From the IMG/VR virus record IMGVR_UViG_3300027899_000090, positions 1 through 20,164 of that record: 20,164 nt of DNA, one strand, 5' to 3'. The notes below the pieces were generated by a model, which had not been told where the DNA came from, searched no databases, and saw nothing but the letters and a program-made list of their open reading frames with translations. The DNA is from a virus. The position numbers and the translations under genes are program-made. Shown here piece after piece: positions 6,744 through 19,815 of the stretch (position 1 is the stretch's first letter; every line of letters begins with the position of its first letter).

Positions 6744-6754
6744 AGTACTCTCTA

Positions 6755-6769
6755 TTTTTATTATTTATT
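6755..6769 (-). promoter_or_regulatory. Late-promoter-like motif before the baseplate operon
   Basis: On the - strand this reads AATAAATAATAAAAA. ATAAATAAT ends 16 nt before the ATG at 6743. It is one of six copies with nearly the same spacing and resembles the T4 late promoter TATAAATA. Confidence 0.6.
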
Positions 6770-6797
6770 GAAATCTATAGAATTAGTATGACCTCTT

Positions 6798-7136
6798 CTA
6801 TTTACTCTTATTCTTTATAAAGTCAGAAAAATTCGATACCTTTCCTCCAGGAGTAACTACTGCCTCCTTCTTTTTAGACTTACCTTTACTCTTTTTTCCT
6901 GGACCAGCTAGAGCAAACATATCCATATCTGCAGGTAGAGCATCAGGAGTTTGCATAATTTGACCAGGAGACTCTGGGTTAACTGGGATAAATCCAGGCG
7001 AATCAGATACTGCGATCATATCTTCTTTAACTTCAGTATCTCTTGATCCAGAAACTATACTAGATGATTTGAGAGCATTCATTTTAACCAGATCAGCTTC
7101 TGTAATCATTTTACTTACAAAATCAGTAAATCGCAT
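6798..7136 (-). CDS. Small late protein with capsid-targeting-like N-terminus, 112 aa
   Basis: No family is recognised. The N-terminus MRFTDFVSKMITEA resembles the T4 capsid-targeting sequence (MKTYQEFIAEA), and the ITE-A step fits the T4 prohead protease rule of I/L-x-E before the cut (after residue 13). The C-terminus repeats the same theme: VSNFSDFIKNKSK, with FSDFIK echoing FTDFVSK. Between them lie a low-complexity, Pro/Ser/Asp-rich stretch and a Lys-rich patch (KKSKGKSKKKE) that could bind DNA. It is preceded by a late-promoter-like motif (7153-7162) and separated by 54 nt from the baseplate operon start. I infer a packaged internal protein or a head-assembly factor. The gene is supported by its dedicated promoter motif, its placement and the lack of any competing frame. 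Confidence 0.65.
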   Translation of the reverse strand: MRFTDFVSKMITEADLVKMNALKSSSIVSGSRDTEVKEDMIAVSDSPGFIPVNPESPGQIMQTPDALPADMDMFALAGPGKKSKGKSKKKEAVVTPGGKVSNFSDFIKNKSK

Positions 7137-7152
7137 TGCTCAAAATGTTTTA

Positions 7153-7162
7153 GTTATTTATC
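7153..7162 (-). promoter_or_regulatory. Late-promoter-like motif before the 112-aa gene
   Basis: The - strand reads GATAAATAAC, ending 16 nt before the ATG at 7136. The last base and the A-rich tail differ from the other copies, but the spacing is the same. Confidence 0.5.
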
Positions 7163-7171
7163 TAAATAAAG

Positions 7172-7197
7172 AAAGGCGATTATTTATCGCCTTTTTT
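7172..7197 (-). terminator. Strong hairpin terminator, possibly bidirectional, containing a promoter-like motif
   Basis: AAAGGCGAT (7172-7180) and ATCGCCTTT (7186-7194) form a perfect 9-bp stem with the loop TATTT, followed on the + strand by three more Ts. Read leftward, the direction of the genes here, the stem is followed by CTTTATTTA, so it can end the transcript of the 63-aa gene, whose stop lies inside the stem-loop. The - strand of the hairpin also contains GATAAATAAT (7179-7188), identical to the core of the late motif. Confidence 0.75.
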
Positions 7198-7371
7198 AAA
7201 TTTACTGTAAGGAATCACCCAAAGTTTTCTCTTAATACTCTTCTTCAGAAAATCATATATTGAAGTTTTTGGATCGTCGTCAGGGTGTTGTACCACTGCA
7301 TTTTCTAGAGGTTCTTTTCCTTTTCGATAGTCTTCAAGGTTTTGCCAACTTTCTGGTTTCTTTTTGCTCAC
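7180..7371 (-). CDS. Small basic hypothetical protein, 63 aa
   Basis: The product is a short, highly charged protein (many Lys, Asp, Glu) with no recognised family and no membrane segment. It begins at a GTG 10 nt after the stop of the metallophosphoesterase gene; no ATG is available in frame near this position. Its stop codon lies inside the terminator hairpin, which marks it as the last gene of this operon and supports it as a real reading frame. The C-terminal KKSIKRKLWVIPYSKFKKGDK is strongly basic. A DNA- or RNA-binding role is possible but is not shown by any motif. Confidence 0.5.
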   Translation of the reverse strand: MSKKKPESWQNLEDYRKGKEPLENAVVQHPDDDPKTSIYDFLKKSIKRKLWVIPYSKFKKGDK

Positions 7372-7381
7372 AAGTTATGTA

Positions 7382-8935
7382 TTATTTTAAAGTAGTAAAT
7401 TCTCCATCAACAAAATGAATATGTTGTGCTTTTGCGTCAGTGTGTATCAATATGTGAGACTGACCCCAATTACTTGCACCTAAGTTATATCCTATTCTCA
7501 GATGAGTAGTTGTTCCTACTGAAAGAGCACCATCTTTTCTTCCTGGAGAGTGGTAGTGTCCGACTGCAATTTTAGTGTTTAGCTTTCTAAATTGAAGTAA
7601 TGATCCTCGGCTTCCACCCGATCCAATATCTCCATGCTGTCCAAGTTCCCAACTATTTACTAGATAACTATCACTTCTTCCAAGAGTCTTGAAATTAGGA
7701 AATTTCTTATTTATTAAGAACGGGATAATTCCATTCGGTGCCTCATTATTTAGGATCGCTGCAGAGAACTGCATATATTCTAACGAATTCTTTGGAGTAA
7801 CTGTTTTTCTCCAGTCAGTGTCTTTCAACCACCTGTCAATAAAATCATCGTGATTACTTCGAACGATTACTACATTATAGTCTTGGAATTCTTCCAATCC
7901 AGTCAGCATAGTATCGATCTCGTTCTTTAGAGAATTAGTACCATCTACCTCTTTTCTGTATTGCGCAAACGGATCCTTTATTTCATGGTGATTAATTGAA
8001 ACTCCATCAAATACATCGTGTAAGATCACATGTTCTGGATGGATCTTTGCCATTAGGTCAAAGGTAGCATCGACTACTGACTGATCATGATTACCGTAGT
8101 GAATATCTCCCCAAACAATCGCAGACATCTTGTCAATTCGAGTCACAGTACGATCCTCTGTTCTAAAATAGAGATCAGTAAAGCTACCAGTATCAGTTGC
8201 GGTAACTTGTCGAATAAAGAATACTTCATCGTCCTTTATCTCAACGATTACAAATCCAAGAGTATGATGAAATTCTCCTTTCTTTCCAGATTTAGAATCA
8301 GTGTAATTCTTAACTGTGCATGCACCAGTCGTAAGCATTAGTTTTGGTCTATTTCCTTGAAGAACAGGAATTGGCTCGAGGTGTACTTTTGGTGATCCAA
8401 ACACACATGAGTTAATTCCACTCATTCCTTGAAGACCAGTAAGTGGATCTATTGAGGTTGGTGGAATTTTAACATCTGACATGATCGAGAGATACTTATG
8501 TAAGTCGTGTCGATTTGCATCAAGATACTCACCAATTCTATCTGACCAAGTATCGTATTTCTTATCTGTAAATACTGATGTTGGATTTTTATATCGACCT
8601 GCAATTACATGGATATCTGCATCCAAGAACTCTGCATAAGCTTCGATATTGTTAATAAATTCTTCGTGTACTGGAGTATCGTTCTGTGCCCAAGTTATGA
8701 TAAATCTCTTCTTTTCTCGATTTACCTCCCTTGACTTTGCATTGATAAGTTGAGGTGACTCCTCAACATGCTTAATATTATAACCTAATTTTGAAATCCA
8801 GTGCTGAATCGTTCGTTCAGATCGTTCGAATTTTTCAGCAAGTGTGCGAAGTCGTTTGTCCCATGAAATTTCTTTATTAAAATAGATTTCAGCAATAAAC
8901 TCAATGTCTTCATCTTCTAATTCAGTAAACTTCAT
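7382..8935 (-). CDS. HTH-metallophosphoesterase, phage T5 A1-like
   Basis: Residues about 24-52 (KRLRTLAEKFERSERTIQHWISKLGY) form a helix-turn-helix of the kind found in phage regulatory and terminase-small-like proteins. The C-terminal half is a calcineurin-type metallophosphoesterase with all the expected metal-binding blocks in order: GDIHYGN (276-282), HDVFDG (306-311), RSNHDD (359-364), QHGDIG (433-438) and GHYHSPG (459-465). The middle (about 60-260) is not recognised. The overall type recalls the A1 protein of phage T5, needed for second-step DNA transfer and host DNA degradation, and its relatives in many large phages; this comparison is from memory. Nuclease or phosphodiesterase activity is likely from the intact metal ligands, while the biological role is inferred. 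It follows the ligase fusion by 48 nt and is followed by the 63-aa gene. Confidence 0.75.
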   Translation of the reverse strand: MKFTELEDEDIEFIAEIYFNKEISWDKRLRTLAEKFERSERTIQHWISKLGYNIKHVEESPQLINAKSREVNREKKRFIITWAQNDTPVHEEFINNIEAYAEFLDADIHVIAGRYKNPTSVFTDKKYDTWSDRIGEYLDANRHDLHKYLSIMSDVKIPPTSIDPLTGLQGMSGINSCVFGSPKVHLEPIPVLQGNRPKLMLTTGACTVKNYTDSKSGKKGEFHHTLGFVIVEIKDDEVFFIRQVTATDTGSFTDLYFRTEDRTVTRIDKMSAIVWGDIHYGNHDQSVVDATFDLMAKIHPEHVILHDVFDGVSINHHEIKDPFAQYRKEVDGTNSLKNEIDTMLTGLEEFQDYNVVIVRSNHDDFIDRWLKDTDWRKTVTPKNSLEYMQFSAAILNNEAPNGIIPFLINKKFPNFKTLGRSDSYLVNSWELGQHGDIGSGGSRGSLLQFRKLNTKIAVGHYHSPGRKDGALSVGTTTHLRIGYNLGASNWGQSHILIHTDAKAQHIHFVDGEFTTLK

Positions 8936-8956
8936 ACATTGTAAAAGTTTTGTTGT

Positions 8957-8962
8957 ATTATA
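8957..8962 (-). promoter_or_regulatory. Possible -10 element before the metallophosphoesterase gene
   Basis: The 48-nt gap contains TATAAT on the - strand, 21 nt before the ATG at 8935. No clear -35 or Bacteroidota-type TTTG element is seen at proper spacing. In an AT-rich genome this can occur by chance. Confidence 0.2.
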
Positions 8963-8983
8963 TCTATAAACTTGATATAAGTT

Positions 8984-10903
8984 TTAGATACTGTCCTCCT
9001 TCACATCAGATTCAATAAGTTTAGAATCTAGTAAAGGCGTAATAATCTTTTCTTCAAGAATCAAATCTGTTACTTCAGTGACTACTTCATTTACCCTTAA
9101 CTCAAGTTCCTTTTGAAGATTAAAAAATTCACCAGCGATTGCAGTTGGTACTAATTTTTTAAATTTTGTAAAATCTGAAGTTTGAATAGCCTTAATTACG
9201 TCATCTGATTTTACAAAAATCGGAAGCTCAACAAGTTTAAATTCAGAAGAGAGTCTTAGCGGTATATTCTTCTTCTTTACATAATCCAATTGAAGTACAT
9301 AATCTTTCATTCTGCTTTCAGAAGTTCCCCAAAGTAGCGGAGTATATTCAGGTTGAATTACTTCAAGAATATCTTCAAGTTGTCCGCCTGCAATAATTCT
9401 GACGTCTGCAATTATCTCCGGATACTCTTGTTGAGTTTTTGCAAGCATCATCCTAGTCTCCCTTAGTGAAAACGGTGACTTCTTATTCTGTACATCAGGT
9501 TTAATTGCAACAAAGATAGTCTTATTTCCATTCTTTGCTTTTAACTTTTCAGCTGCTCGAATATGTCCCATCGTTACTGGTTGAAAACTACCAATCAAGA
9601 GATTTACTGGAATAGCCTCAACTTTTTTGTAAGCTCCTTCAGCTACCTCCTTTTCACTAAGTATCGCCTCCTCATTTGAAGATCCTACAAATTCGCTAAA
9701 ACTTGGAAAGAGACTTTCATAAACAGTATCTCCCATTATAACATTTTTAAGTTTAGTTACAATAAGATTAAGTTGAGTAAGTAACTGTGGACTAAAGAAA
9801 CCAGATGAAGACTTCTTTCTAGTTTTTCTAAAGAAATTTAGAAGAATCTTGTATATCTCAGAGTAGGTTTCGTTATTCTTTAATAGTTTAATAATTTCTG
9901 GATCCTTGATTAAGCTTGCATCGAGTTCAAATTCAGGTCTTTTTAAATATTCTGGTACTTCAAGTGAAAGTCCTTCGTATTTACCAGCATATTCTTTGAT
10001 AAAGTCTTTAAACACTGCGTTTACAAGAGAAACATATTTTTCATCGAATGTTTCTCCATTCTCACACATCTTTTGTAATTCTTCAAGACTATATAGCTCA
10101 AAGTTATTCATTAAGTCAATAACAATAAGCCAAATATAATCCTGTGATCTGTTCTCTTTTGGTTTAGTATTAGTTGATACCTTATAATTAAAGATAGGAT
10201 CCACTAGTTTTGCCAAGAATACTGATTCCTCAGATGCCTCATTATAAAATCTAAATACAAGAGTTTCAATATTTCCGTCTAGATTATTCTTTAAAAAAGA
10301 ATTAGGTAACTCTTCGTTTAGGATAGAGAGAATATACTTCGTAAATGAGGTAGTCTTAAATTTTTGATTTAATTCATCTGCGGGTGAATAGACAAACTCT
10401 AGGATTGCTGATTTTTGTTCATCAGTAAGTCGCCCTTCAAAAACAATAGGTGATCTCTCAACTCCAAGGTAATCTGCCCACTTATCTAATTGCTCTTTAT
10501 TTTGAACAGTTGCGACCACATTACCTGCATCATCCATCTTATGAATATACGACAAGATTAGATGATTCTTTGGAAGTCTGTCGTATTTACTACTAACTGT
10601 ATCATTGTTTGTAAAATACTCAAATCCAAAATAGAAATTAGATGGAATTCTCTGCCTCTTTTCAGGAGAAATTGACTCAAAGTATGAAATTGCATGATTA
10701 TAGTACTTCATCAGTACTCTATCTACATAACTTATCTCTCCAGACTTTTTAAAATACTTAAAGTCATCACTCTTGTTCTTCTTTACACCAAAGAAAGTAC
10801 CATCTACTTTTTCATTGATGATAACATATGAGTTAAGGAGACTCTTTAAAAATTCTTCGCCCTTCTTTTCGTATACCTCTTTGAGGTTGTTGATTCCTGC
10901 CAT
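8984..10903 (-). CDS. Ligase-like nucleotidyltransferase fused to NMN adenylyltransferase-like domain
   Basis: Two enzyme domains are visible. The N-terminal part has the covalent nucleotidyltransferase signature of RNA/DNA ligases: INEKVDGT with the KxDG lysine at residue 32, FYFGFEYF (90-97, motif III-like), DGNIETLVFRF (209-219, motif IV-like) and FLAKLVDPIF (229-238, motif V-like). Residues about 240-425 are helical and unassigned. The C-terminal part has the GxFxPxTxGH signature of adenylyl/cytidylyltransferases (GSFQPVTMGH, 438-447), then FSLRETRMML (478-487) and a C-terminal SDDVIKAIQTSDF...LVP. That last element sits where NMN or pantetheine-phosphate adenylyltransferases have ISSTxIR, but a Lys replaces the Arg. 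Long phage proteins annotated as 'cytitidyltransferase' have a similar layout. A polynucleotide ligase with an NAD-making domain is plausible; neither substrate is certain. It starts 5 nt after the 187-aa gene. Confidence 0.7.
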   Translation of the reverse strand: MAGINNLKEVYEKKGEEFLKSLLNSYVIINEKVDGTFFGVKKNKSDDFKYFKKSGEISYVDRVLMKYYNHAISYFESISPEKRQRIPSNFYFGFEYFTNNDTVSSKYDRLPKNHLILSYIHKMDDAGNVVATVQNKEQLDKWADYLGVERSPIVFEGRLTDEQKSAILEFVYSPADELNQKFKTTSFTKYILSILNEELPNSFLKNNLDGNIETLVFRFYNEASEESVFLAKLVDPIFNYKVSTNTKPKENRSQDYIWLIVIDLMNNFELYSLEELQKMCENGETFDEKYVSLVNAVFKDFIKEYAGKYEGLSLEVPEYLKRPEFELDASLIKDPEIIKLLKNNETYSEIYKILLNFFRKTRKKSSSGFFSPQLLTQLNLIVTKLKNVIMGDTVYESLFPSFSEFVGSSNEEAILSEKEVAEGAYKKVEAIPVNLLIGSFQPVTMGHIRAAEKLKAKNGNKTIFVAIKPDVQNKKSPFSLRETRMMLAKTQQEYPEIIADVRIIAGGQLEDILEVIQPEYTPLLWGTSESRMKDYVLQLDYVKKKNIPLRLSSEFKLVELPIFVKSDDVIKAIQTSDFTKFKKLVPTAIAGEFFNLQKELELRVNEVVTEVTDLILEEKIITPLLDSKLIESDVKEDSI

Positions 10904-10908
10904 ACTAA

Positions 10909-11472
10909 TTATTGTGCTGGATTTTCTGTTGGATTTTCTTTAGGAGTCTCTTCAGTTTGAGTAGGCTCTTCTGTCTCTTGCGGTTTCGAATTCATTGCTT
11001 TTCTAATACTAACTGAATCCATGCTAATCGAGATACTTCGTACGTTATCTGAATCCTCTGCGTTCGTTGTAAAGTAGTCAACTATCTTCTTAAGATTCAT
11101 ATTTAATGTCTCTTCTCCAAATCCTCCAGCCTTTTCAATCTTAGCCTTAAGCATTTTTGTTGCATTCCAACTACCATTATAACTTATTGACCAACAGTAA
11201 AATCTTACCTCCTCGTTTTTGCTAGTATAATAGTGTTGCATGTCCTGAATTTTCTGGATTGCACCATTTGCATCACGATAAGTCGTTGCTCTGCCTAATG
11301 TATCTGAAGGAACTCCAAATCTAACGTCGTCAGACAATACTTCCATTAACTGTGAAATACGATCAATGATTTGATCAGCAGTGTATCCTTTCAACGGTCG
11401 GTCGCCGTTCGGGGAACCTGTTTCCTCAGCTTCTTTTAAATATTGTGTGAATCCTTTTAGTTCTCTAGCCAT
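10909..11472 (-). CDS. Late protein with capsid-targeting-like N-terminus, 187 aa
   Basis: No family is recognised. The N-terminus MARELKGFTQYLKEAEE has the aromatic-spaced pattern of T4 capsid-targeting sequences, and LKE-A fits the T4 gp21 cleavage rule (L/I-x-E), with the cut after residue 14. The body (about 25-150) looks folded and mixed alpha/beta, with a helix around ADQIIDRISQLMEVLSDDVRFG and a strand pair VRFYCWSISYNGSW. The last 25 residues are a disordered Pro/Glu/Thr tail. It sits directly behind a late-promoter-like motif that overlaps the stop of the kinase gene, and is followed 5 nt later by the ligase fusion. I infer a late protein, possibly packaged into the head or processed by the prohead protease. 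Confidence 0.65.
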   Translation of the reverse strand: MARELKGFTQYLKEAEETGSPNGDRPLKGYTADQIIDRISQLMEVLSDDVRFGVPSDTLGRATTYRDANGAIQKIQDMQHYYTSKNEEVRFYCWSISYNGSWNATKMLKAKIEKAGGFGEETLNMNLKKIVDYFTTNAEDSDNVRSISISMDSVSIRKAMNSKPQETEEPTQTEETPKENPTENPAQ

Positions 11473-11481
11473 TGCAACTAA

Positions 11482-11498
11482 TTTTTTATTATTTATTA
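11482..11498 (-). promoter_or_regulatory. Late-promoter-like motif overlapping the kinase stop codon
   Basis: The - strand reads TAATAAATAATAAAAAA. ATAAATAAT ends 15 nt before the ATG at 11472. The motif begins inside the kinase gene: its last codons AAT AAA TAA are the motif core. Confidence 0.6.
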
Positions 11499-12103
11499 GA
11501 GAAGTTCAACGCATGTTCACTAAAGTTCGTAATCATAGCATTAAATTCAGCCACACTAATCTCATTAAAATGATTAGTGAACTCCATATAACGATTTCCA
11601 CGATCAGGATCGTATACATAGTCGCTAAATTGGTCAATTACTAAGTTAAAGAGGGAACTTTCTGCTTCATAATCTTCAAAGTTACTAAAGTAGTCCTTTT
11701 CTCTCTTTTCTGGAGTTGGCATGCTCTTTCTAGTAAGATAAACGAGCGCACAGTTCATATAGAGATCACTTTTAAGAATCTTTTCAAATTCATCTAGCAA
11801 TCTTTGCTGATCTAGTCGTTTTCTATAGATAGACCATACATATGCTGAAAAGATAGATCTATCAAATACAAGTATCTTGTCCTTTAAGATAGTCTTGTTT
11901 AATTCAAGGATAGTTAGCACATTTGCTATGCTAAAATAGTGTACTCCTGGACCAGCGTCATGATCTCTTATCCCAAGATAATCAATATACTTTGCAAAGA
12001 GAAACTTATAGTAGATTATGTCAGGATTTTGATTCTGTTTAAAGAATTCCTCAAGTAGGTGTGTTTTGCCAGAGTGTCGCGGGCCCTCGATAAAAATTAT
12101 CAT
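11489..12103 (-). CDS. P-loop kinase, dNMP/deoxynucleoside or polynucleotide kinase-like
   Basis: A Walker A motif GPRHSGKT (residues 7-14) opens the protein. LVFDRSIFSAYVW (78-90) carries the Asp-Arg-Ser triad typical of thymidylate and deoxynucleoside kinases. The C-terminal half is helical, with DPDRGNRY before the last helix pair. At 204 aa it has the usual length of a dNMP kinase. Its start overlaps the stop of the HAD gene by four bases (ATGA), so the pair is translationally coupled. A kinase beside a HAD phosphatase repeats the two activities of T4 polynucleotide kinase-phosphatase (PseT), here as separate proteins, although the DRS motif also fits a nucleotide kinase such as a T4 gp1 analogue. 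The substrate cannot be decided from the sequence. Confidence 0.72.
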   Translation of the reverse strand: MIIFIEGPRHSGKTHLLEEFFKQNQNPDIIYYKFLFAKYIDYLGIRDHDAGPGVHYFSIANVLTILELNKTILKDKILVFDRSIFSAYVWSIYRKRLDQQRLLDEFEKILKSDLYMNCALVYLTRKSMPTPEKREKDYFSNFEDYEAESSLFNLVIDQFSDYVYDPDRGNRYMEFTNHFNEISVAEFNAMITNFSEHALNFSNK

Positions 12104-12681
12104 AGTAATTGTATTCTTTGTTCTTCTGAAAGTTTAATATTTTCTATTTTAAACATTTTTGACTTATCTACAATATAAGTAGACAGTTTACACTTTGGAG
12201 CTCCAAAAAACTTAAGTGGATCTTCATTAAGAGACTCAAATACTTGGTGATATTTCTGTATCTGCTCAATTGAATCTTCATATACTTTAACTTCTACTAG
12301 ATTTGGTAATTGCCGCATTATCTCAAGAGCAGTGGTCGTCTTATCTGATTTTCTTCCTAGCAAATAGATTTGATCAAATCGCATTCCTCTTTTTTCTAAT
12401 ACTTCTCGAACTTCCTTCTCAAGTTCGCTAACTCTATGTGTGATTACAATAGATAAGTAGTCTTCTCGATTCTCTCCATCCTTCCATGCACTGAATACTG
12501 GGCCAATTGCCTGAATATTATGTGAATCTTCGCATAGGGAGATCGGGTGATCGTAGAATTCGTATGGAGTCTCGAAGTCGAATCCATGTTGTATATCTAT
12601 ATGTCGATTACTCGTGTAACTAGGTACCCTTACGATCGTTTCATCAAAATCAAAAATCTGTAATACTTTTACTTTATCCAT
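12100..12681 (-). CDS. HAD-superfamily phosphatase, RNA-repair (SAK)-type
   Basis: All four HAD motifs are visible: IFDFDETIV with nucleophile Asp11 and general acid Asp13; VITHR with Thr81; a Lys at 111 or 114 in GRKSDKTT; and VYEDSIEQI with the acidic pair Glu135-Asp136. The DFDET start, the large insert between motifs I and II (about residues 20-75) and the THR motif fit 'Swiss army knife RNA repair-like' HAD proteins, which often occur near ligases and kinases in phages. Partners are the overlapping P-loop kinase and, two genes further on, the ligase-like fusion. A 2',3'- or 3'-phosphatase acting on nucleic acid ends is the leading idea, by context. It is transcribed divergently from the 163-aa gene across a 56-nt gap. 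Confidence 0.75.
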   Translation of the reverse strand: MDKVKVLQIFDFDETIVRVPSYTSNRHIDIQHGFDFETPYEFYDHPISLCEDSHNIQAIGPVFSAWKDGENREDYLSIVITHRVSELEKEVREVLEKRGMRFDQIYLLGRKSDKTTTALEIMRQLPNLVEVKVYEDSIEQIQKYHQVFESLNEDPLKFFGAPKCKLSTYIVDKSKMFKIENIKLSEEQRIQLL

Positions 12682-12710
12682 GGTAGTTATCTTATCTACT
12701 ATATTCTATT

Positions 12711-12726
12711 GATAAATAATAAAAAG
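12711..12726 (+). promoter_or_regulatory. Late-promoter-like motif before the 163-aa/uvsY/uvsW operon
   Basis: The + strand reads GATAAATAATAAAAAG, with ATAAATAAT ending 17 nt before the GTG start at 12738. It lies in the divergent gap between the HAD gene and the 163-aa gene. Confidence 0.6.
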
Positions 12727-12737
12727 TTTTAACCCAG

Positions 12738-13229
12738 GTGAGACAAAAGTTCATAAAACTATTCGAAGACTATACTAAGGATCAATCTGAGACTCCAGTG
12801 TCTGGCGAAGCATGGACTCACGTTCGTGATACTATTCAAACTAGAAGACCGTTCGTAATTATCGTGTTTAAGAACAAGGATAGTTATGCTAGCGCACTTG
12901 CTAAGGATCTTTCTACATATGAATGTATCAAACAAACGGCAATCATCTTTACTTCAGAAGGAGAAAAGAGATATCCATCTGTCTTCTTTTCACTAGACCA
13001 TGATCAAGAATTTAGTAATAAAGTAAAGGAGCTTTATGAAAAATTCAAGATAAAATCGCTAGTCGTTGGCAAAGCAAATTCTGAGTATTCTACCCTCTAC
13101 CTTGATGACGGGACCTCGACTGATTTTGGAAACGAGATTGTTTCTACACTAAGTCCAGAAGAGTTAGAGTCCTCTGATCAATTTAAGTTAGGATCAGTAT
13201 ACTATAGATTTATTACATTTGAAGGATAA
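12738..13229 (+). CDS. Hypothetical late protein, 163 aa
   Basis: No family is recognised. It starts at GTG, the only suitable codon near the upstream motif; this gives MRQKFIKLFEDYTKD, whose aromatic spacing is like the capsid-targeting-type N-termini of other late genes here (LFE-D also satisfies L-x-E, though less convincingly). The rest looks like a compact alpha/beta domain: strands FVIIVFKN, QTAIIFTS, SVFFSLDHD, SLVVG and a C-terminal VYYRFITFEG. It leads a + strand operon with probable uvsY 32 nt downstream and uvsW after that, so it may work in recombination-dependent replication or simply share late timing. A Rossmann-like fold is possible, but no catalytic motif is seen. Confidence 0.65.
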   Translation: MRQKFIKLFEDYTKDQSETPVSGEAWTHVRDTIQTRRPFVIIVFKNKDSYASALAKDLSTYECIKQTAIIFTSEGEKRYPSVFFSLDHDQEFSNKVKELYEKFKIKSLVVGKANSEYSTLYLDDGTSTDFGNEIVSTLSPEELESSDQFKLGSVYYRFITFEG

Positions 13230-13261
13230 ACCCAATCCAATAAATTAGTATAACTACTCGT

Positions 13262-13711
13262 ATGAGCGATGTACCTGAATCAAATTCCAAGAAACCATCA
13301 ATAACTGAGAGATTTCAAAAGCGACGTTCTGATATTTCAAAAGAAATCTATGAAAGTATCGAACGTCTCTCAAACCTAAAGACCCTAAAGGATGCTCAAG
13401 TACAGATGCTCTCACTAAGACAGAGACTACTTGAGGACAACCATACTCTACTCGAGAATATAACTATGCTTAGAAAAAAGTATAGAGAAGAACGCGCTGC
13501 TGAGATGGAGAATATCTCAAAGAATCTTCAATTAAGGTATCAGTCCAACGAAAAAACTGTTGTTATTGAGGGTAGAACATCTGCCACTAAAGAATACTTG
13601 GAAATATTTGAAAATCAAGTAGCATTCTTTACTGATTCAATCAAGACAATTGATAATATTATCTTTGGAATAAAGACGCGGCTCGATATTGAAAAGACCC
13701 TGGGCCTCTAA
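13262..13711 (+). CDS. uvsY: Probable UvsY-like recombination mediator
   Basis: At 149 aa it is close to T4 UvsY (137 aa). It is predicted to be almost entirely helical, with long charged helices (about 20-45 and 55-90) and a C-terminal helical segment YLEIFENQVAFFTDSIKTIDNIIFGIKTRLDIEKTLGL. In spacing and character this matches the UvsY C-terminus that drives oligomerisation. UvsY loads the UvsX recombinase onto single-stranded DNA displacing gp32. The strongest support is position: it lies 14 nt before a clear UvsW helicase gene, and uvsW and uvsY are near neighbours in T4. There is no sharp sequence motif to prove it, and a generic coiled-coil protein is the alternative. The preceding sequence AATAAATTAG is only a weak match to the late motif. 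Confidence 0.5.
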   Translation: MSDVPESNSKKPSITERFQKRRSDISKEIYESIERLSNLKTLKDAQVQMLSLRQRLLEDNHTLLENITMLRKKYREERAAEMENISKNLQLRYQSNEKTVVIEGRTSATKEYLEIFENQVAFFTDSIKTIDNIIFGIKTRLDIEKTLGL

Positions 13712-13725
13712 AAAAATCGAACTAT

Positions 13726-15300
13726 GTGTTACGATTTAAACTCATCAACGATAACAACACAATTAAACTAGTTAACTTTGATCTTAACTCTGAAAGAAAC
13801 GATCTATTCAAATTCTTTAAGAGAAAATCTAAGAAGGCAGCGTTTAATGTTCTAGTTGATCGTGGTGTTTGGGATGGATTTGATCACTTTATTAATAAAG
13901 AAGGAGAAATTTCAGTCAGTCTCTGGAAAGAAGTTTACAATTTTGCTAATGCCTATGGTTACGACTGCGAAATTGAAGGAATCGACGCTCTGCTTAGCCT
14001 AGGACTAGATCGTGATAAGTATCTAAAGTATGTAAATCGACTACTTGATGGAGTAGTTGATGAGCATAACTTACCAATTGTTCCTAGAGAATATCAAGTA
14101 GAAGGAGCTTTTCGTGCAATCAAGTATAAATTCTGTACTCAGGAACTTGCAACCTCTTCTGGTAAAACCCTAATCTTCTATATCTATAATTCATTCTTAA
14201 GAGATGCAAAAAAGGTTGACTCTTCTCGCAAAAGTCTTATAATAGTTCCAAACGTTTCCCTAGTCAACCAAACTGCTGACAAATTTAGGTTATATTCTGT
14301 TGGTAAAACACAATGGAATATCTGTGAAATTGGAGGAGATGATAGATTTAACCAAGCTCAATTTGATAGTAGTGAATTAGTAATTTCAACATATCAAAGC
14401 TTACATAATCTTCCTAAGGAAATATTCAAAGCATTCACAGTGGTTTGTGTAGATGAGACTCATAAATCTCGTGGAAATTCGATTAAAGAAATCCTTCTAG
14501 CCTGCTCCAATTGGAAATATCGATTAGGTCTTTCTGGAACTGTGAAGATTGAGGAGAAATTCTCAGACTTTTTTAGAGTTCAGGAAAATGTTGGACCTCT
14601 AGTAATGATACTTTCAGCAAAACATCTTATCGATAAAGGGTTCTCTCCAAATATCCAGATACAGATCTTGAACCTTAAGTACGATAGATCTGATCCATAC
14701 CTTAAAGCCTATTGGGAAGTAAAGAACACTAGTAAGGACACTTATGCAAGTGCAAAGGATTACGGCAGAGACATGTTAGCAATTGAACGCAATTTCATAT
14801 TTGACAGTGAACCTCGACTAGAGTTTATTAACTCACTAGTAAAGAAATTTGAAAAGAACACACTAATCCTTTTCTCTGATATAAAGAACAAGTACGGCAA
14901 GAAGATTCAGCAGAAATTACTTGAGTGGAATAGTGATACTTTCTATATAGATGGAAGTATCGAATCCACTGACCGAGATGATTTTAAACAGACAATGGAA
15001 TCCAAAGGCAATGTAGTAATAGTTGCCTCGTATGGTACTTTTTCCACCGGAATTGACCTGAAAAATGTGCATAATATTGTATTTGCAGAGTCAACTAAAG
15101 CTGAGATCACAATACGCCAATCAATTGGCCGCGGAATGCGAAAGCTTGCAGAAAAGAATCACGTAACTATCTGGGATCTAGTAGATCAATTAGATGGATA
15201 CATGGTAAAGCACGCAGAAAAGCGAGAAGAAATATACAGAGATCAAGAGTTCAAGATTGCTAAGAAAGAAGTCATCTTGTCTCAAGAATCATCTGTATAA
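13726..15300 (+). CDS. uvsW: UvsW-like superfamily 2 DNA helicase
   Basis: T4 UvsW unwinds branched and R-loop DNA, driving fork regression and the switch from origin- to recombination-dependent replication. Helicase motifs appear in order: PREYQ (120-124), Walker A TSSGKT (143-148), LIIVPNVSLVNQ (171-182), ISTYQSL (220-226), DETH (243-246, where T4 has DECH), SGT (270-272), VIVASYGTFSTGIDLKNVHNIV (about 431-452) and QSIGRGMR (465-472). The N-terminal DRGVWDGFDHF matches the UvsW N-terminal domain. At 524 aa it is close to T4 UvsW (about 500). The start is GTG; an ATG two bases earlier is out of frame and soon meets a stop. It probably shares the late-motif transcript starting at 12711, as expected for a gene that T4 expresses late. 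It converges on phoH with 12 nt between stops. Confidence 0.9.
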   Translation: MLRFKLINDNNTIKLVNFDLNSERNDLFKFFKRKSKKAAFNVLVDRGVWDGFDHFINKEGEISVSLWKEVYNFANAYGYDCEIEGIDALLSLGLDRDKYLKYVNRLLDGVVDEHNLPIVPREYQVEGAFRAIKYKFCTQELATSSGKTLIFYIYNSFLRDAKKVDSSRKSLIIVPNVSLVNQTADKFRLYSVGKTQWNICEIGGDDRFNQAQFDSSELVISTYQSLHNLPKEIFKAFTVVCVDETHKSRGNSIKEILLACSNWKYRLGLSGTVKIEEKFSDFFRVQENVGPLVMILSAKHLIDKGFSPNIQIQILNLKYDRSDPYLKAYWEVKNTSKDTYASAKDYGRDMLAIERNFIFDSEPRLEFINSLVKKFEKNTLILFSDIKNKYGKKIQQKLLEWNSDTFYIDGSIESTDRDDFKQTMESKGNVVIVASYGTFSTGIDLKNVHNIVFAESTKAEITIRQSIGRGMRKLAEKNHVTIWDLVDQLDGYMVKHAEKREEIYRDQEFKIAKKEVILSQESSV

Positions 15301-15312
15301 TTCTATCTACTC

Positions 15313-16083
15313 TTACCGATTACCGTTCAGCTTTTCAGAATTCTCGATTTTATCAAATACTTCTTCAAGTATCTTGATAATCGGGTGACGTACAATATCT
15401 TCTTTAGAAAGCTGAGCTAATCCAATCTCCTTGATTCCAACAAAGTGATCGATCAATATCTCAAGAGCACTTTTTTCTCTCTTGTTTACTGACTTTTGCT
15501 TAACGTCTCCTAGAAAGATCATCTTAGCGTTTGCACCTATTCTAGTAATTAGGGTGCGTAGGTTATCTTTTGAAATCTGTTGAGCTTCATCAATTATAAT
15601 AATCGAATCGTCTAGAGTAACTCCCAATGCAAATTTAATAGGGAGAATCTCAATAACTCCAGTTGCCTTAAGATCGTCTGTTGCAGACTTGCCGATAATC
15701 TTATTGAAGTTACTGATAAATGGATACATGTACATCTCCATCTTCTCTTGTAGAGTTCCCTTAAGATATCCTATCTCTTCGTCCTTTGGAACGTTTACTG
15801 ATTTTATTAAGATAATCTTCTTGTAGGTAAGCGGCTCATCTTTGATAAACTTAAGAGCTCTTGCGCAAGCTAGATAAGTTTTACCTGTTCCTGGAGGACC
15901 AGTTATTACTGAGATTACAGTGTCCTCTATTGCAGAAATAACGTCCTTCTGTGCTTTTGATTTACACTTGATATCGATCTTTCCAGCGAGTACACGTACT
16001 GACTTTAATCTTTCTGAGTCTCTTTCCCAGCTCTCGATCTCTTCATTTTCTTCTTTACTGAATTTGTTTTTTCCTCTAGCCAT
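15313..16083 (-). CDS. phoH: PhoH-like P-loop ATPase
   Basis: A PhoH-family ATPase of 256 aa. Visible motifs are Walker A GPPGTGKT (62-69), a KSVNVPKDEEIGYLKG segment (94-109) typical of the family (Ser-Val then Pro, and E-x-G-x-L-x-G), Walker B IIIIDEAQQ (161-169) and the sensor-like FLGDVKQ (190-196). The first 40 residues are charged and lack a KH domain. PhoH genes are very common in marine and aquatic phages of all tail types; a link to phosphate stress is often assumed, but the biochemical role in phages is not settled, and nucleic-acid-dependent helicase or RNase functions have been proposed for relatives. It follows the 205-aa gene by 5 nt and should share its transcript. Confidence 0.92.
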   Translation of the reverse strand: MARGKNKFSKEENEEIESWERDSERLKSVRVLAGKIDIKCKSKAQKDVISAIEDTVISVITGPPGTGKTYLACARALKFIKDEPLTYKKIILIKSVNVPKDEEIGYLKGTLQEKMEMYMYPFISNFNKIIGKSATDDLKATGVIEILPIKFALGVTLDDSIIIIDEAQQISKDNLRTLITRIGANAKMIFLGDVKQKSVNKREKSALEILIDHFVGIKEIGLAQLSKEDIVRHPIIKILEEVFDKIENSEKLNGNR

Positions 16084-16088
16084 AGTTT

Positions 16089-16706
16089 TTAGTATATTTT
16101 AGTTGCGATCACTATTCCAAGTATTGTTCTGGAATAGTGTAATTGAAAATTAAGGTATGCGACAATTGCATTTAATTCTTTTCCTTTTGGATCCAAGTCA
16201 GTCATCTTTTTATAATTCAACTTAAGTAATCCATGCATCTGTGTTGAAGTTAGACTTGCCTCGTTCATTGCGATGATATCTGCTAATATCATATTATAGT
16301 CTACACCAGAGAGATTGTCAGAGCCGAGTAAACCTACAAATTTTCTACCCTTCTTTATTTGTTCTATCTTTAATTCAAGGTCATCACTTGCAAGTCCAGA
16401 GTCAAGTTGCTCCCTGATAAGATTTAATTTGGAGATAGTTGCTGCCTCTTCTGAAATAAAGTAGACGTCCTCTTGATATAGTGAGATAGTTATGCTTGTC
16501 TCTTTCTCGAGATATGAAAAGTTGAGAGTAGTATCCGTGCCGAATGTGCCTAATATCTGGATTAGGATAGGAGCGACTCCGATATCCGCTGGGTCAGTCC
16601 CTTCCATTTCCAGAGTTAGCTCGTAATCCTCAAAAGGAAATGCTTCCATGAACGGAAAGACTACGTATAGCTCTGAAGTTTTATCTAGCGGCTCGCTCTC
16701 ACTCAT
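16089..16706 (-). CDS. Hypothetical late protein, 205 aa
   Basis: No family is recognised. The N-terminal half is acidic with beta-strand character (LYVVFPFMEAFPFEDYELTLEM, ILIQILG, TLNFSYL, SITISLYQEDVYFIS). The C-terminal half is helical, with an IEQIKKGRKFVGLLGSDN turn, and ends in the hydrophobic segment YSRTILGIVIATKIY, too short to call a membrane helix with confidence. It begins 16 nt after a good late-promoter-like motif and is followed 5 nt later by phoH. An early-acting role is unlikely if the motif works as proposed. The start ATG is supported by the constant motif-to-start distance. Confidence 0.6.
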   Translation of the reverse strand: MSESEPLDKTSELYVVFPFMEAFPFEDYELTLEMEGTDPADIGVAPILIQILGTFGTDTTLNFSYLEKETSITISLYQEDVYFISEEAATISKLNLIREQLDSGLASDDLELKIEQIKKGRKFVGLLGSDNLSGVDYNMILADIIAMNEASLTSTQMHGLLKLNYKKMTDLDPKGKELNAIVAYLNFQLHYSRTILGIVIATKIY

Positions 16707-16716
16707 CTAAAACTTC

Positions 16717-16733
16717 TTTCTTATTATTTATTT
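16717..16733 (-). promoter_or_regulatory. Late-promoter-like motif before the 205-aa gene/phoH
   Basis: The - strand reads AAATAAATAATAAGAAA, with ATAAATAAT ending 16 nt before the ATG at 16706. Confidence 0.6.
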
Positions 16734-16760
16734 CAAGTATACCTGGCTTAACTTGATAAT

Positions 16761-16835
16761 AGTCAAATTTAAGAAATCTAGTAGGTTAGCGGTGAGCCCA
16801 TTAAAGTTAAAATATTTAGTCAAAATTAGCTAGTA
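16761..16835. repeat. Imperfect direct repeat in the divergent intergenic region
   Basis: AGTCAAATTTA (16761-16771) followed by CTAGTA (16778-16783) recurs as AGTCAAAATTA (16818-16828) followed by CTAGTA (16830-16835), with a shorter spacer. It lies in the 201-nt gap between the 205-aa gene and the polymerase half. A small stem AGCTAG/CTGGCT (16828-16844, one G-U pair) overlaps the second copy. An operator or a remnant of a duplication is possible; chance is also possible in AT-rich DNA. Confidence 0.3.
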
Positions 16836-16890
16836 TCACTGGCTATAAAAAAGGCCTCTTTTCGCTAATTTGTTTAAACCATTTACATTT

Positions 16891-16900
16891 TATAAGTAAT
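16891..16900 (+). promoter_or_regulatory. Weak late-motif-like element before the polymerase half
   Basis: TATAAGTAAT differs by one base from TATAAATAAT but ends only 7 nt before the ATG at 16908, unlike the 15-17 nt of the other copies. It may be a -10 element or a chance match. Confidence 0.2.
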
Positions 16901-16907
16901 AGACATC

Positions 16908-18332
16908 ATGGAAGATACTTCAAAACAGATTAAAAAGCTAGATCTTAAGCAGAATGCTATAAAGATTCTTATTAACTCAATATATGGAGCATTTGGCAAT
17001 AAGTGGTTCTACTTCTATAATCCAGATATTGCACAGTCGATTACTCTACAGGGTCAAGATCTAATTAAGTTTAGTATCAAGGCAGTAAACCACTACTTTT
17101 CTGAGAAGTGGCATCTTGACACTGAACTACATGAGATGCTCGGACTCTCTAAGTATAAGATCAATAGAATTATTGACGAGGCTGCCATCTACACAGATAC
17201 TGACTCTATATATGTACAGTTCGACTCTGCAATAAGTTCAATAGAGGGAGCAGAACTTACCTCAGATGAAGCTTTAAAGATATGTGTTGCGATTGACAAT
17301 CATCGACTCTCTACCTATTTTGATCAGTGTTTTGAAAAGTACGGAAGAGTGTTTAACACTAAGAATCGTCTAAAGTTCAAACTCGAAAACCTATCAGAGT
17401 ATGGTATCTGGTTAAAGAAGAAGAATTATGCAATTAAGGTCGCATACGATCCTAATCCTGCAATGGAACTTATTCCAATGGAAAAGAGAAAATTGATTAT
17501 CAAGGGACTTGAGCCAGTGAAAAGTTCATATCCCGATTGGTCACGAGTGAACCTAGTAGTCTTAACTGAGTTTATTATGAAGGTCGGTAAGAAACTTGAT
17601 CTTGAACTCGATCTTATTCCAAAACTTAAGGAGCTAAGAAGGATATTTGAAGATCTTTCAACTGACGAGGTTGCATTCAATTTCAATATTCGAGTGTATA
17701 ATAAGTATGTAGAAGATGAGGCAACCTTAAGTCTTAGAAAAGGAATATCAATCTATCCTAGAGCAGCTGCCTACTATAACCACCTTCTAATAAAGACTGG
17801 ACTAAATACGAAATATTCTCCAATTAGAGAAAAGGATAAGATTAAATACTATTACTGTGCTCCAAATGAGCATGGTTTTGATGTATTTGCATACTCACCT
17901 CAAAATTATCCAGTAGAGATTGCTCCACCACATGATAAGGAACAACAGTTCTTTTCTCTTATTGTTGAACCAGTAAATAGACTACTTGAGGCAATGCGAA
18001 TGAGCTCAATTGATATTCATCTAAAAAGAAATATTGAAGTAGTTAGACCAAAGAGCAAGAAGGAACTTACTGAAGATCAGATATATCCACTGTATATAGT
18101 CGATTCAGATACCTTAGGTTATGTTGAAGTTCCTGAAAAATTTTGGAAGATTATTGGTAATCCTGATGCAGCTATTCCAGAAGATAGCTTCTCTGAATAC
18201 TTGACTGTAATAACTAAATACGGATTAAATTCAGTAGTTGTTCCTAAGTTTGAACTTGAAAAGTATATCAAGAGATTAGCTAAAAAGAAACAAGAACCAG
18301 TCATTGAAGTAGAAACTGAAGATGCTGAATAA
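16908..18332 (+). CDS. 43: DNA polymerase family B, C-terminal half (split gp43)
   Basis: The protein begins just before polymerase motif B: KQNAIKILINSIYGAFGN (14-31), then motif C YTDTDSIYVQ (95-104) with the catalytic Asp pair, and a thumb-type GIWLKKKNYAIKVAYD block near residue 165. Everything N-terminal is missing: the 3'-5' exonuclease domain and motif A (DxxSLYPS) with the other catalytic Asp. An in-frame stop at 16893 and - strand genes upstream exclude a nearby continuation, so this is a separate gene rather than a local frameshift. T4 gp43 is about 898 aa; these 474 aa correspond to fingers, palm remainder and thumb. Split gp43 genes are known in some Aeromonas T4-like phages and a physically divided polymerase is reported for Rhodothermus phage RM378 (from memory). 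It overlaps the primase start by 11 nt. Confidence 0.88.
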   Translation: MEDTSKQIKKLDLKQNAIKILINSIYGAFGNKWFYFYNPDIAQSITLQGQDLIKFSIKAVNHYFSEKWHLDTELHEMLGLSKYKINRIIDEAAIYTDTDSIYVQFDSAISSIEGAELTSDEALKICVAIDNHRLSTYFDQCFEKYGRVFNTKNRLKFKLENLSEYGIWLKKKNYAIKVAYDPNPAMELIPMEKRKLIIKGLEPVKSSYPDWSRVNLVVLTEFIMKVGKKLDLELDLIPKLKELRRIFEDLSTDEVAFNFNIRVYNKYVEDEATLSLRKGISIYPRAAAYYNHLLIKTGLNTKYSPIREKDKIKYYYCAPNEHGFDVFAYSPQNYPVEIAPPHDKEQQFFSLIVEPVNRLLEAMRMSSIDIHLKRNIEVVRPKSKKELTEDQIYPLYIVDSDTLGYVEVPEKFWKIIGNPDAAIPEDSFSEYLTVITKYGLNSVVVPKFELEKYIKRLAKKKQEPVIEVETEDAE

Positions 18333-19473
18333 AATGTTCGATATTGCTGTGAGTTACTCTGTACCAGATTTTTGTCTAGACGTTCTAAAAAAGAGATTTC
18401 CTGGAGATCAGCTACGTCAAAAAATAAACGAATATGACGATGACAAACTCAATTTTGCTTGTCCGTATTGTGGTGACTCTGAGAAAGATCCAAATAAGAA
18501 GCGAGGACACATGTACCTCACTACACAAACCTATAAATGTTATAATGATGGTTGTGCTATCTGGGTTAAACTTGATAAGTTTGTATCGAAATTTGCACAG
18601 AAATATCAGTTAAATATTCCTGGAGTAGAGGAGAAGAAGGTAGAGTTTAAACCTAGTGTTTCTACAAAGAAGAAGGGTTTCTTAATCGAGTTCTTAATTA
18701 ATAGAGAAGTAGGTAAAAAGCTTCTAGTTTTTAGTGATCTCGTTGACAGATTTACTCTATTTCCTTGTTCTAGTGCAAATCCAGATAGTCCAATTGGTCA
18801 GTTTATAGATCGCAGAAAGATCAATAACCTTCCAGTATTTGAACAGAGCTGTTATTATGACTCTAGGCAGGACAAGATCTACATATTTAATCTTGACTTA
18901 AAATCTGGTAGAGTCCTAGGATTTGCAGTTCGCCGAATTTCAGATGATTATCCAGGTCCAAAGTATAATATAAAGAATTACTCAGATTTTAAGAAAACAG
19001 GTATTCTTACTGATCTTGCTGATGAGTTTATTCGAGAAGTAGACTCCATTAATAACTACTTTAATATTCTAAATATTGATTTTTCAAAAAAGATAACTAT
19101 CACTGAAGGACAAATCGATGCAATGTTCGTGGATAACTGTATTGCAACCACTGGTGTAACCAAAAGTAAACAGTTATTAGATAACCTAGTTGCAAAGAAT
19201 AATGTTAGAATCCTATTTGATAATGACTCTGCTGGAAAAAATCAGACAATTGAGCTAATTAAGAAGGGATACACAGTATTCTTATGGAATAAACTAACGA
19301 CATCACTCCGTAGAAAATATCCAAAGGCAGTTCGAGAGATTATTGAAATTAAAGATATTAATGATCTATACCGTTTCATGCTAACCAAAGACGCTGGCAT
19401 TACTTTTGAAAAGTTCAATGAGCTGCTCAATAAATACTTTTCAGATTCAGTGTTCGATCTACTTCTAGTTTAA
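18322..19473 (+). CDS. 61: DNA primase, gp61-like
   Basis: It makes RNA primers for lagging-strand synthesis with the replicative helicase (gp41 in T4; not in this window). The N-terminal zinc-binding region reads ACPYCGDS (Cys47, Cys50) with DPNKKRGHMYL and YKCYNDGC (Cys73, Cys78), closely matching the T4 gp61 pattern CPVCGDS...NKARG, although the second Cys pair is spaced by four residues. The TOPRIM catalytic part has ITITEGQIDAMFV (Glu262) and ILFDNDSAGKN (Asp300, Asp302). At 383 aa it is close to T4 gp61 (342 aa). Two in-frame ATGs exist: 18322, inside the polymerase stop region, and 18334, just after the polymerase TAA; I give the longer form. Both indicate translation coupled to the polymerase half. 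Confidence 0.88.
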   Translation: MLNKMFDIAVSYSVPDFCLDVLKKRFPGDQLRQKINEYDDDKLNFACPYCGDSEKDPNKKRGHMYLTTQTYKCYNDGCAIWVKLDKFVSKFAQKYQLNIPGVEEKKVEFKPSVSTKKKGFLIEFLINREVGKKLLVFSDLVDRFTLFPCSSANPDSPIGQFIDRRKINNLPVFEQSCYYDSRQDKIYIFNLDLKSGRVLGFAVRRISDDYPGPKYNIKNYSDFKKTGILTDLADEFIREVDSINNYFNILNIDFSKKITITEGQIDAMFVDNCIATTGVTKSKQLLDNLVAKNNVRILFDNDSAGKNQTIELIKKGYTVFLWNKLTTSLRRKYPKAVREIIEIKDINDLYRFMLTKDAGITFEKFNELLNKYFSDSVFDLLLV

Positions 19474-19487
19474 TAAATAATAAAAAG
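19471..19487 (+). promoter_or_regulatory. Late-promoter-like motif before the acidic 105-aa gene and gp4
   Basis: The + strand reads TAATAAATAATAAAAAG, starting in the primase stop codon. ATAAATAAT (19473-19481) ends 16 nt before the ATG at 19498. Confidence 0.6.
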
Positions 19488-19497
19488 ATTAGACACA

Positions 19498-19815
19498 ATG
19501 AACAATCGAATTAAATCTCTTTACGAATACGCAATGGGAGTAAATCCTGAAGAGGTAAACTTGGAGGAGTTAAACTTAGATGAAACAATGTTGGACGAAC
19601 TCGTTGAACTTGTTGGATCTGAAGAAGAAGTTGAAGCTGCTGCAGAATCTGCTTATAAAGATCTAATGGCTTCTTTTGAGAAGAATGAAATTGAATTAGC
19701 TGATGGAGATATTCCTGAAAAACTTGCGATTGCTTCTCTAATTATTAAACTTGTGGAATTAGGTAAAATTGGTCCAGAAGATGCTGATGAATTCATCAAA
19801 AATAATCTTGACTAA
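19498..19815 (+). CDS. Small highly acidic late protein, 105 aa
   Basis: No family is recognised. It is very acidic: by my count 28 Asp/Glu against 8 Lys/Arg. It is predicted to be helical, with Leu/Glu-rich stretches (VNLEELNLDETMLDELVELV, KLAIASLIIKLVELGKI). The N-terminus MNNRIKSLYEYAMG shares the aromatic pattern of other late genes here. It has its own late-promoter-like motif and lies 3 nt before the gp4-type head completion gene, so a head-related role is plausible: a small acidic scaffold or core component like T4 gp67/gp68, or a packaged protein. Neither is shown by homology that I can recognise. The composition would also fit a DNA mimic. Confidence 0.65.
   Translation: MNNRIKSLYEYAMGVNPEEVNLEELNLDETMLDELVELVGSEEEVEAAAESAYKDLMASFEKNEIELADGDIPEKLAIASLIIKLVELGKIGPEDADEFIKNNLD

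Follow-up and report, generated by a model that had tools for sequence, protein, structure and literature searches.

The start-linked motif found in this viral DNA is a previously undescribed variant of the T4-type late promoter. We analyzed a stretch of 20,164 nucleotides (the window), a 20-kb fragment for which megablast finds no match to a cultured phage. Taken as a whole, the motif is very probably best explained as a late promoter of a deep-branching, uncultured group of T4-related phages, read by a sigma factor of the gp55 family, with a start on an A run that may also aid translation.

Five exact copies of the motif, ATAAATAAT, and one variant, ATAAATAAC, precede start codons in the window by 15 to 17 nt (Table 1). 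All six lie where a sequence-only reading had placed them, and its claim that their spacing is too regular for AT-rich chance holds up well. Counting as start-linked those copies with a start codon 14 to 18 nt downstream that opens an ORF of 50 aa or more, 5 exact copies were observed against 0.003 per shuffle (300 dinucleotide shuffles of the window); irrespective of start codons, the exact motif occurs 6 times, against a mean of 0.95. If, following T4 geometry, +1 is set twelve bases downstream of the initial A of ATAAATA, leaders of 12 to 14 nt are predicted instead of the roughly 10 nt first proposed. The ACTAAAA form seen at 7147..7161 is common among relatives. The site at 11482..11496 overlaps the ORF before it at its 3' end, and that at 19473..19487 the primase ORF at its stop codon. 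The promoter at 12712..12726 probably also drives a UvsW-like helicase operon, and the gene next downstream of the 205-aa ORF is PhoH-like. A further exact copy (7179-7187, minus strand), absent from the sequence-only reading, has no start codon at promoter spacing; it falls in the loop and 3' arm of a hairpin that looks like a terminator, and was excluded from the promoter count.

Table 1. Predicted late promoters and a terminator-like hairpin in the window. Gap, distance from motif end to start codon; footprint, motif presence in orthologous upstream regions.
Feature	Sequence	Position	Strand	Gap (nt)	Predicted +1	Predicted leader (nt)	Downstream ORF	Footprint
Late promoter	ATAAATAATAAAAAT	6754..6768	-	16	6756	13	640 aa, 4821-6743	present in the single region found
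Late promoter (ATAAATAAC at 7161)	ATAAATAACTAAAAC	7147..7161	-	16	7149	13	112 aa, 6798-7136	no orthologue found
Late promoter	ATAAATAATAAAAAA	11482..11496	-	15	11484	12	187 aa, 10909-11472	21/21
Late promoter	ATAAATAATAAAAAG	12712..12726	+	17	12724	14	163 aa, 12738-13229 (GTG)	25/25
Late promoter	ATAAATAATAAGAAA	16717..16731	-	16	16719	13	205 aa, 16089-16706	28/30
Late promoter	ATAAATAATAAAAAG	19473..19487	+	16	19485	13	105 aa, 19498-19815	28/28
Terminator-like hairpin (-11.6 kcal/mol, z -3.6)	AAAGGCGAU-AAAUA-AUCGCCUUU	7172..7195	-					

The genome-wide enrichment whose absence would have refuted the sequence-only reading was found, and strongly, in five large related phage records, which contain 24 to 42 start-linked sites each, versus 0.4 to 0.6 in shuffled sequence. 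In these records, ATAAATAA is the highest-scoring 8-mer 5' of genes in a de novo search; the same script finds TATAAATA in T4. Sites occur on both strands in the window and its relatives. Phylogenetic footprinting detected the motif at 103 of 105 orthologous upstream regions of window motif genes, against none of 160 upstream regions of seven control genes, and the motif is retained at orthologous genes despite diverged flanks. The extended motif is not shared by T4-like Bacteroidota phages at large: MaF61 lacks extended sites, PTm1 shows no clear excess and Lak-A2 a weak one (20 vs 7.6).

The motif marks late-type genes. In G002, one of the three largest relatives (with G001 and G008, each above 130 kb), family scans match motif genes to tail sheath, prohead protease, baseplate wedge, head closure, endolysin and spanin, and non-motif genes to polymerase, helicases, ligase, topoisomerase and nucleotide enzymes. 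The portal, terminase and major capsid genes also have no box immediately upstream, so that operon transcription is needed for these three.

The full element can be written RATAAATAA-N-WAAAA. In a profile of 141 sites, A or G occupies position -13 in 93% of cases and ATAAATA extends from -12 to -6, which bears out the likeness to the T4 late promoter, with an altered first base and an A-rich extension, that had been noticed in the window. A reaches 98% at +1 and 95% at +2, then falls steeply at +3. No -35 box is present, with no position from -47 to -15 carrying more than 0.29 bit of information. At the common spacings, the A run stays equally far from the core however far the core lies from the start codon. 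Since it tracks the core and not the start codon, the A-rich tail is primarily part of the promoter and initiator, and a tail serving as ribosome signal only is ruled out. Predicted leaders average 13.6 +/- 3.2 nt, versus 20.1 +/- 8.1 nt in T4.

A candidate sigma factor for this box is encoded by all three of the largest relatives, where gp55-family proteins were detected with E-values of 1e-16 to 1e-20; the family comprises 27 close loci in all. By tblastn, the relatives' gp55 homologue, a protein of 132 aa, matches annotated late sigma factors, and in a fold comparison T4 gp55 (7d7c) alone among PDB entries matches it at E<0.001. Structure prediction used contig rows only. T4 gp55 residues N13, F86, Y97 and T99, known to contact A-12, A-9 and A-8 (PMC7892883), are kept in the homologue, whose pocket is mostly, not wholly, conserved; it also carries a conserved L[DE]F[IL]S tail. 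The gp55 gene is absent from the 20-kb window, itself a fragment, and none was found in prokaryote genome contigs. The window's own virus presumably carries one, and we infer that gp55 reads the ATAAATA box. The sequence-only reading had also pointed to gp33 and gp45, neither of which was found by sequence. For gp45, no match was obtained to phrog_223, PF09116 or PF02916 (T4 and/or Syn9 being positive in the Pfam searches), and for gp44 nothing at the level of T4 or Syn9 was seen in the relatives, in records that may be incomplete in both cases. For gp33, which is small and fast-evolving, phmmer and profile comparison gave no hit, and family searches, phmmer and hhalign gave nothing convincing for gp45, gp44, gp33 or gp62.

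We may also hypothesize that the late promoter is read by another factor, either a second sigma with regions 2 and 4 (phrog_1740) or a host sigma. G001 and G002 do encode another sigma-like protein, some 210 aa long. However, T4 and cyanophages use a nearly identical box with gp55 (PMC2988020, PMC2984593), most of the pocket residues that contact A-12, A-9 and A-8 are retained in the homologue, and the lack of a -35 element leaves nothing for sigma region 4 to read. A separate motif, AGTATAAT, precedes non-motif genes and makes a likelier target for the second sigma. The TAnnTTTG box of Bacteroidota is not enriched in these phages. We consider recognition by a factor other than gp55 improbable.

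The proposed absence of Shine-Dalgarno use is borne out in these phages: Shine-Dalgarno 4-mers occur at 3 to 7% of genes in the related phages, against 53% in T4. Two positions are locked to the start codon: -12/-11, beyond the initiator, with A in 59% vs 36% (p 2e-6), and -3, with A in 59% vs 33%; p-values for start-locked A are optimistic because the sites come from related genomes. This agrees with the translation determinants of Flavobacterium johnsoniae, located at -3, -6, -12 and -13 (PMC6847099). Dual use of the element in translation is plausible. The earlier idea of a combined late promoter and A-rich translation signal is supported, with a refinement: the promoter is upheld and the start-locked A at -12/-11 and -3 fits a translation role, but the A tail is tied to the core, and any translation role would come in addition.

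Could the motif be an RNA-level translation-initiation element only, of an A-rich Kozak or S1 type? Its short and fairly constant distance to the start, the lack of Shine-Dalgarno sequences and the preference of Bacteroidota for A at -12/-13 would agree with this. Yet the core matches that of known late promoters exactly and is found some 25 to 17 nt ahead of the start codon, for the most part 5' of the start-locked A preference; the A run follows the core and not the start codon; and co-transcribed or early genes, which also need translation, do without the motif (0/160). A purely translational element is very unlikely. The low GC content of the window (36%) might suggest AT-rich chance or a repeated mobile element, a view that can practically be dismissed in light of the shuffles, the strand-aware link to start codons and the retention at orthologues with diverged flanks.

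In the preferred reading of a T4-type late promoter, a phage-encoded gp55-family sigma, consisting of sigma region 2 only, would guide the RNA polymerase of the host to a -10-like box of 8-9 bp, R(-13) A T A A A T A A(-5), without a -35 element. Transcripts would begin on the A run, where both +1 and +2 are A, and would have leaders about 10 to 17 nt long. Their A-rich 5' end, at roughly -14 to -11 relative to the start codon, may also serve the A-rich initiation preference of the host ribosome. A bolder version, which we put forward tentatively and consider less likely than its alternative, fuses promoter and translation signal in one element and also makes late transcription independent of a phage sliding clamp. 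The mRNA's own A-rich 5' end would be the contact, probably with bS1, that replaces the Shine-Dalgarno sequence in Bacteroidota ribosomes; because the A-run 5' end would supply this contact, the distance from promoter to start codon would be fixed. The clamp may be replaced by the extended A/T-rich box, or by the host clamp, contacted via the gp55 L[DE]F[IL]S tail.

The hosts of these T4-related phages are probably Bacteroidota. An A1-like protein is nearest to phages of Maribacter, Flavobacterium and Cellulophaga, a hub protein is mainly shared with phages of Prevotella, Tenacibaculum, Flavobacterium and Chryseobacterium, and the capsid has Lak phages as its nearest named relatives. The lack of Shine-Dalgarno sites is a further, likewise circumstantial, pointer to such hosts.

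The system shares with T4 (TATAAATA, gp55/gp33/gp45) the ATAAATA core, the lack of a -35 element, an AT-rich initially melted region, late-type genes on both strands and, in the relatives, a gp55-family sigma with most DNA-pocket residues kept. T4 has T at -13, where the present element has A or G, although A occurs there at nine T4 late sites (PMC2988020). The element also differs from that of T4 in an additional conserved A at -5 and in an A run conserved from -2 to +2; leaders are shorter and vary less in length, Shine-Dalgarno use is lacking, and gp45, gp44 and gp33 are not detectable. The cyanophage late promoter, NATAAATA (S-PM2, Syn9), likewise does not fix its first base as T, and one Syn9 site reads ATAAATAACTAAAAA; however, Syn9 has only 2 extended sites versus 45 in G002, cyanophage leaders are longer (mean 23 nt), and gp45 and gp33 homologues occur in cyanophages (PMC2984593). 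Aeh1, with a/gC at -13/-12 (PMC2988020), has a purine at -13 as here, but C instead of A at -12. As here, Far-T4 phages are uncultured aquatic T4 relatives with PhoH (Roux et al. 2015, PMC4360716), and a marine member is predicted to infect Bacteroidetes (PMC7198788). RM378, a cultured Far-T4 member, is a poor match: it has 2 ORFs in common with G002 at E<=1e-8, and its upstream motif differs (TTATTTAA). Roux et al. did not detect the T4 core genes for transcription regulation in Far-T4 phages, and thereby left their late transcription open (PMC4360716). To this question our results bring a promoter, a sigma factor and 24 to 42 predicted start sites per large record, for a gp55 system that apparently dispenses with the phage clamp required in T4, and whose promoters seem built to suit a host lacking Shine-Dalgarno use.

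The window, 20,164 bases long, is an entire virus record of IMG/VR. Its genes encode a baseplate hub/lysozyme, a UvsW-like helicase, PhoH, a primase and the C-terminal portion of a DNA polymerase of family B, a content of the T4-related myovirus type. No close cultured relative of the window was found. The most similar cultured-phage proteins are largely from Bacteroidota phages (Maribacter, Flavobacterium and Cellulophaga; also Prevotella Lak, Tenacibaculum and Flavobacterium); cyanophages are also among the most similar for polymerase and primase, and Lak is the most similar for the capsid of a relative. Uncultured relatives are numerous in IMG/VR, with polymerase identity reaching 79% (76% for G001, one of the large related records used here; stretch L145).

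All six late boxes described in the sequence-only reading are present in the window, at the gaps it gave to the start codon (16, 16, 15, 17, 16 and 16 nt). Exact copies of ATAAATAAT number six, against a mean of 0.95 in dinucleotide shuffles; five have an ORF-opening start codon at 14-18 nt, against 0.003 in the shuffles, which bears out the claim that the spacing is too regular for chance. The sixth copy, overlooked in that reading, lacks a start codon at this spacing. It is part of a terminator-like hairpin (GGCGAU...AUCGCC) with U-rich sequence after it, just upstream of a real promoter. The dominant box spellings, ATAAATAATAAAA and ATAAATAACTAAAA, both occur in the window.

We then took five large related records (207, 176, 139, 129 and 125 kb in length, the fourth covered over 120 kb). 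The enrichment expected from the window extends genome-wide: copies of ATAAATAA followed by a start codon at 14-20 nt number 29 in G001 (207 kb), 42 in G002 (176 kb), 24 in G008, 27 in G003 and 33 in G004, compared to 0.4-0.6 in shuffles of these records. When the 8-mers preceding called genes were counted de novo, ATAAATAA ranked first in all five; the script is validated by T4, where it ranked TATAAATA first. A weight matrix with its 10th percentile as cutoff gave 162 matches genome-wide, of which 122 fall immediately before called genes.

The strongest single result is footprinting at the window's own genes. The box is kept upstream of orthologues of the motif genes in 1/1, 21/21, 25/25, 28/30 and 28/28 cases, despite diverged flanks and protein identities of about 39-76% (rows shown); for the 112-aa ORF the search yielded no orthologue. 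Orthologues of seven neighbouring motif-free genes (A1-like, UvsW, polymerase, PhoH, primase, hub/lysozyme and gp53-like) carry the box in 0 of 160 cases.

Of the G002 genes, 43 come immediately after a box; their matches are to tail sheath, prohead protease, baseplate wedge, head closure, endolysin, spanin and surface/adhesin families. The 84 larger box-free genes have matches to polymerase, helicases, recombinase, ligase, topoisomerase, ribonucleotide reductase and PhoH. Portal, terminase and major capsid are box-free too, probably as internal members of late operons; one boxed ORF is directly upstream of the capsid gene.

Features and their coordinates (L-numbers are DNA stretches read)
Feature	Location	Observation
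Family B DNA polymerase	window 16908-18332(+)	C-terminal half only
Split polymerase, G002	L157:12899-14332(-) and L160:6412-7830(-)	N-terminal half is a separate distant gene in relatives
T5 A1-like DNA transfer protein	window 7382-8935(-)	inside a T4-like phage; closest in Flavobacteriia phages
Sixth exact ATAAATAAT	window 7179-7187(-)	
Promoter behind the hairpin	window 7161(-)	
Late promoter within inverted repeat	L158:15473-15510(+)	AAGCCC...GGGCTT, -10.9 kcal/mol
Second sigma-like protein	L163:9805-10431(+); L172 about 13298-13849(+)	~210 aa, phrog_1740 match
AGTATAA(T)	L156-L195; window upstream of 13262(+) and 1645(-)	before late-box-free genes
Flavobacterium phage MaF61	L208-L216	palindromic GATAAATATTTATC ahead of several genes
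Rhodothermus phage RM378	L246-L252	own strong upstream 8-mer TTATTTAA, 24 genes vs 0.7 expected
Tenacibaculum phage PTm1	L217-L227	own strong upstream 8-mers AATACATA and host-like TATATTTG

A homologue of the late sigma gp55, anticipated in the sequence-only reading, is present in the three largest records, G001, G002 and G008 (phrog_234, E 1e-16 to 1e-20). A tblastn search with a protein of the family returned proteins annotated as late sigma factors, from cyanophages among others; a profile built from these three records' proteins alone reached T4 gp55 in the PDB (E 3e-4), and an AlphaFold model (mean pLDDT 77) had T4 gp55 (7d7c chain F) as its sole match below 0.001. In T4, pockets formed by Y97, N13/H95 and T99 take adenines -12, -9 and -8 (PMC7892883). 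N13, F86, Y97 and T99 are kept here, R57 is R or K, L54 is changed, and H95 is F, as in cyanophages. Twenty distinct homologues share a conserved tail and hydrophobic end, with L-[DE]-F-[IL]-S in all but one; the resemblance of L-[DE]-F-[IL] to the T4 clamp-binding SLDFL epitope is a candidate clue. The sliding clamp gp45 and co-activator gp33, likewise expected, and the gp44 loader were not found in the related records by family, phmmer or profile searches, those with Pfam being positive for T4 and/or Syn9. These proteins may be too diverged or encoded elsewhere than in these records; otherwise, late transcription would do without a phage clamp.

We profiled 141 sites, selected so that ATAAATAA is fixed at -12 to -5, and numbered them by T4 geometry, which puts the TATA box at -13 to -6, with positions named as in PMC2988020 and PMC7892883. 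Almost no information is present from -47 to -15, and thus no -35 element. Position -13 is A/G, with T at only 6%; this fits T4, whose T-13 is outside the pocket-inserted bases (PMC7892883). A reaches 84-88% at -2/-1, 98% at +1 and 95% at +2, then drops abruptly; a conserved run ending at +2 is the appearance expected of an initiator. The late promoter within an inverted repeat precedes an ORF of roughly 655 aa that itself lies ahead of the capsid gene, with similar sites in G001, G004 and G008; in read-through RNA, the box would end up in the loop of a hairpin.

The A-rich tail had been proposed as a translation signal. The run itself is promoter-locked, since, across groups of sites with start-codon gaps of 14-20 nt, its A's keep a constant spacing to the core (95-100% at indices 12-13). 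Apart from the run there is a separate, weaker preference locked to the start codon. A makes up 59% at -12/-11, compared with 36% at -9 to -4 (p 2e-6); for -3 the figures are 59% vs 33% (p 2e-7). Both p-values are optimistic because the genomes are related. These A's may act in translation; they are at the same positions as the determinants of Flavobacterium johnsoniae, where -3, -6, -12 and -13 promote translation of mRNAs without Shine-Dalgarno sequences (PMC6847099). The suggested lack of Shine-Dalgarno use holds, with SD 4-mers at 3-7% of gene starts vs 53% in T4. Predicted leaders (T4-geometry +1) measure 13.6 +/- 3.2 nt, shorter than those of T4 (20.1 +/- 8.1) and Syn9 (23.1 +/- 8.4). 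In the simplest reading, we infer that leaders with no SD to accommodate would have shrunk until the initiator A's reached the ribosome's A-preferring site.

Other motifs accompany these and other phages. Some 18 nt ahead of AGTATAA(T), which may be an early or middle promoter, lies an A-rich patch resembling AAAC; many copies of the motif end just 5-9 nt before ATG, and the mRNAs would then have little or no leader. The MaF61 palindrome is perhaps a two-way late promoter.

Far-T4 would be a plausible label for this phage group; Roux et al. explicitly left the transcription of Far-T4 phages open (PMC4360716). A literature search on Far-T4 promoters gave no published description of a fixed A run with a short leader. 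Set beside the cyanophage late promoter, NATAAATA, and that of Aeh1, with a/gC at -13/-12, the late box is a gp55-type late promoter, a new variant in both sequence and layout.
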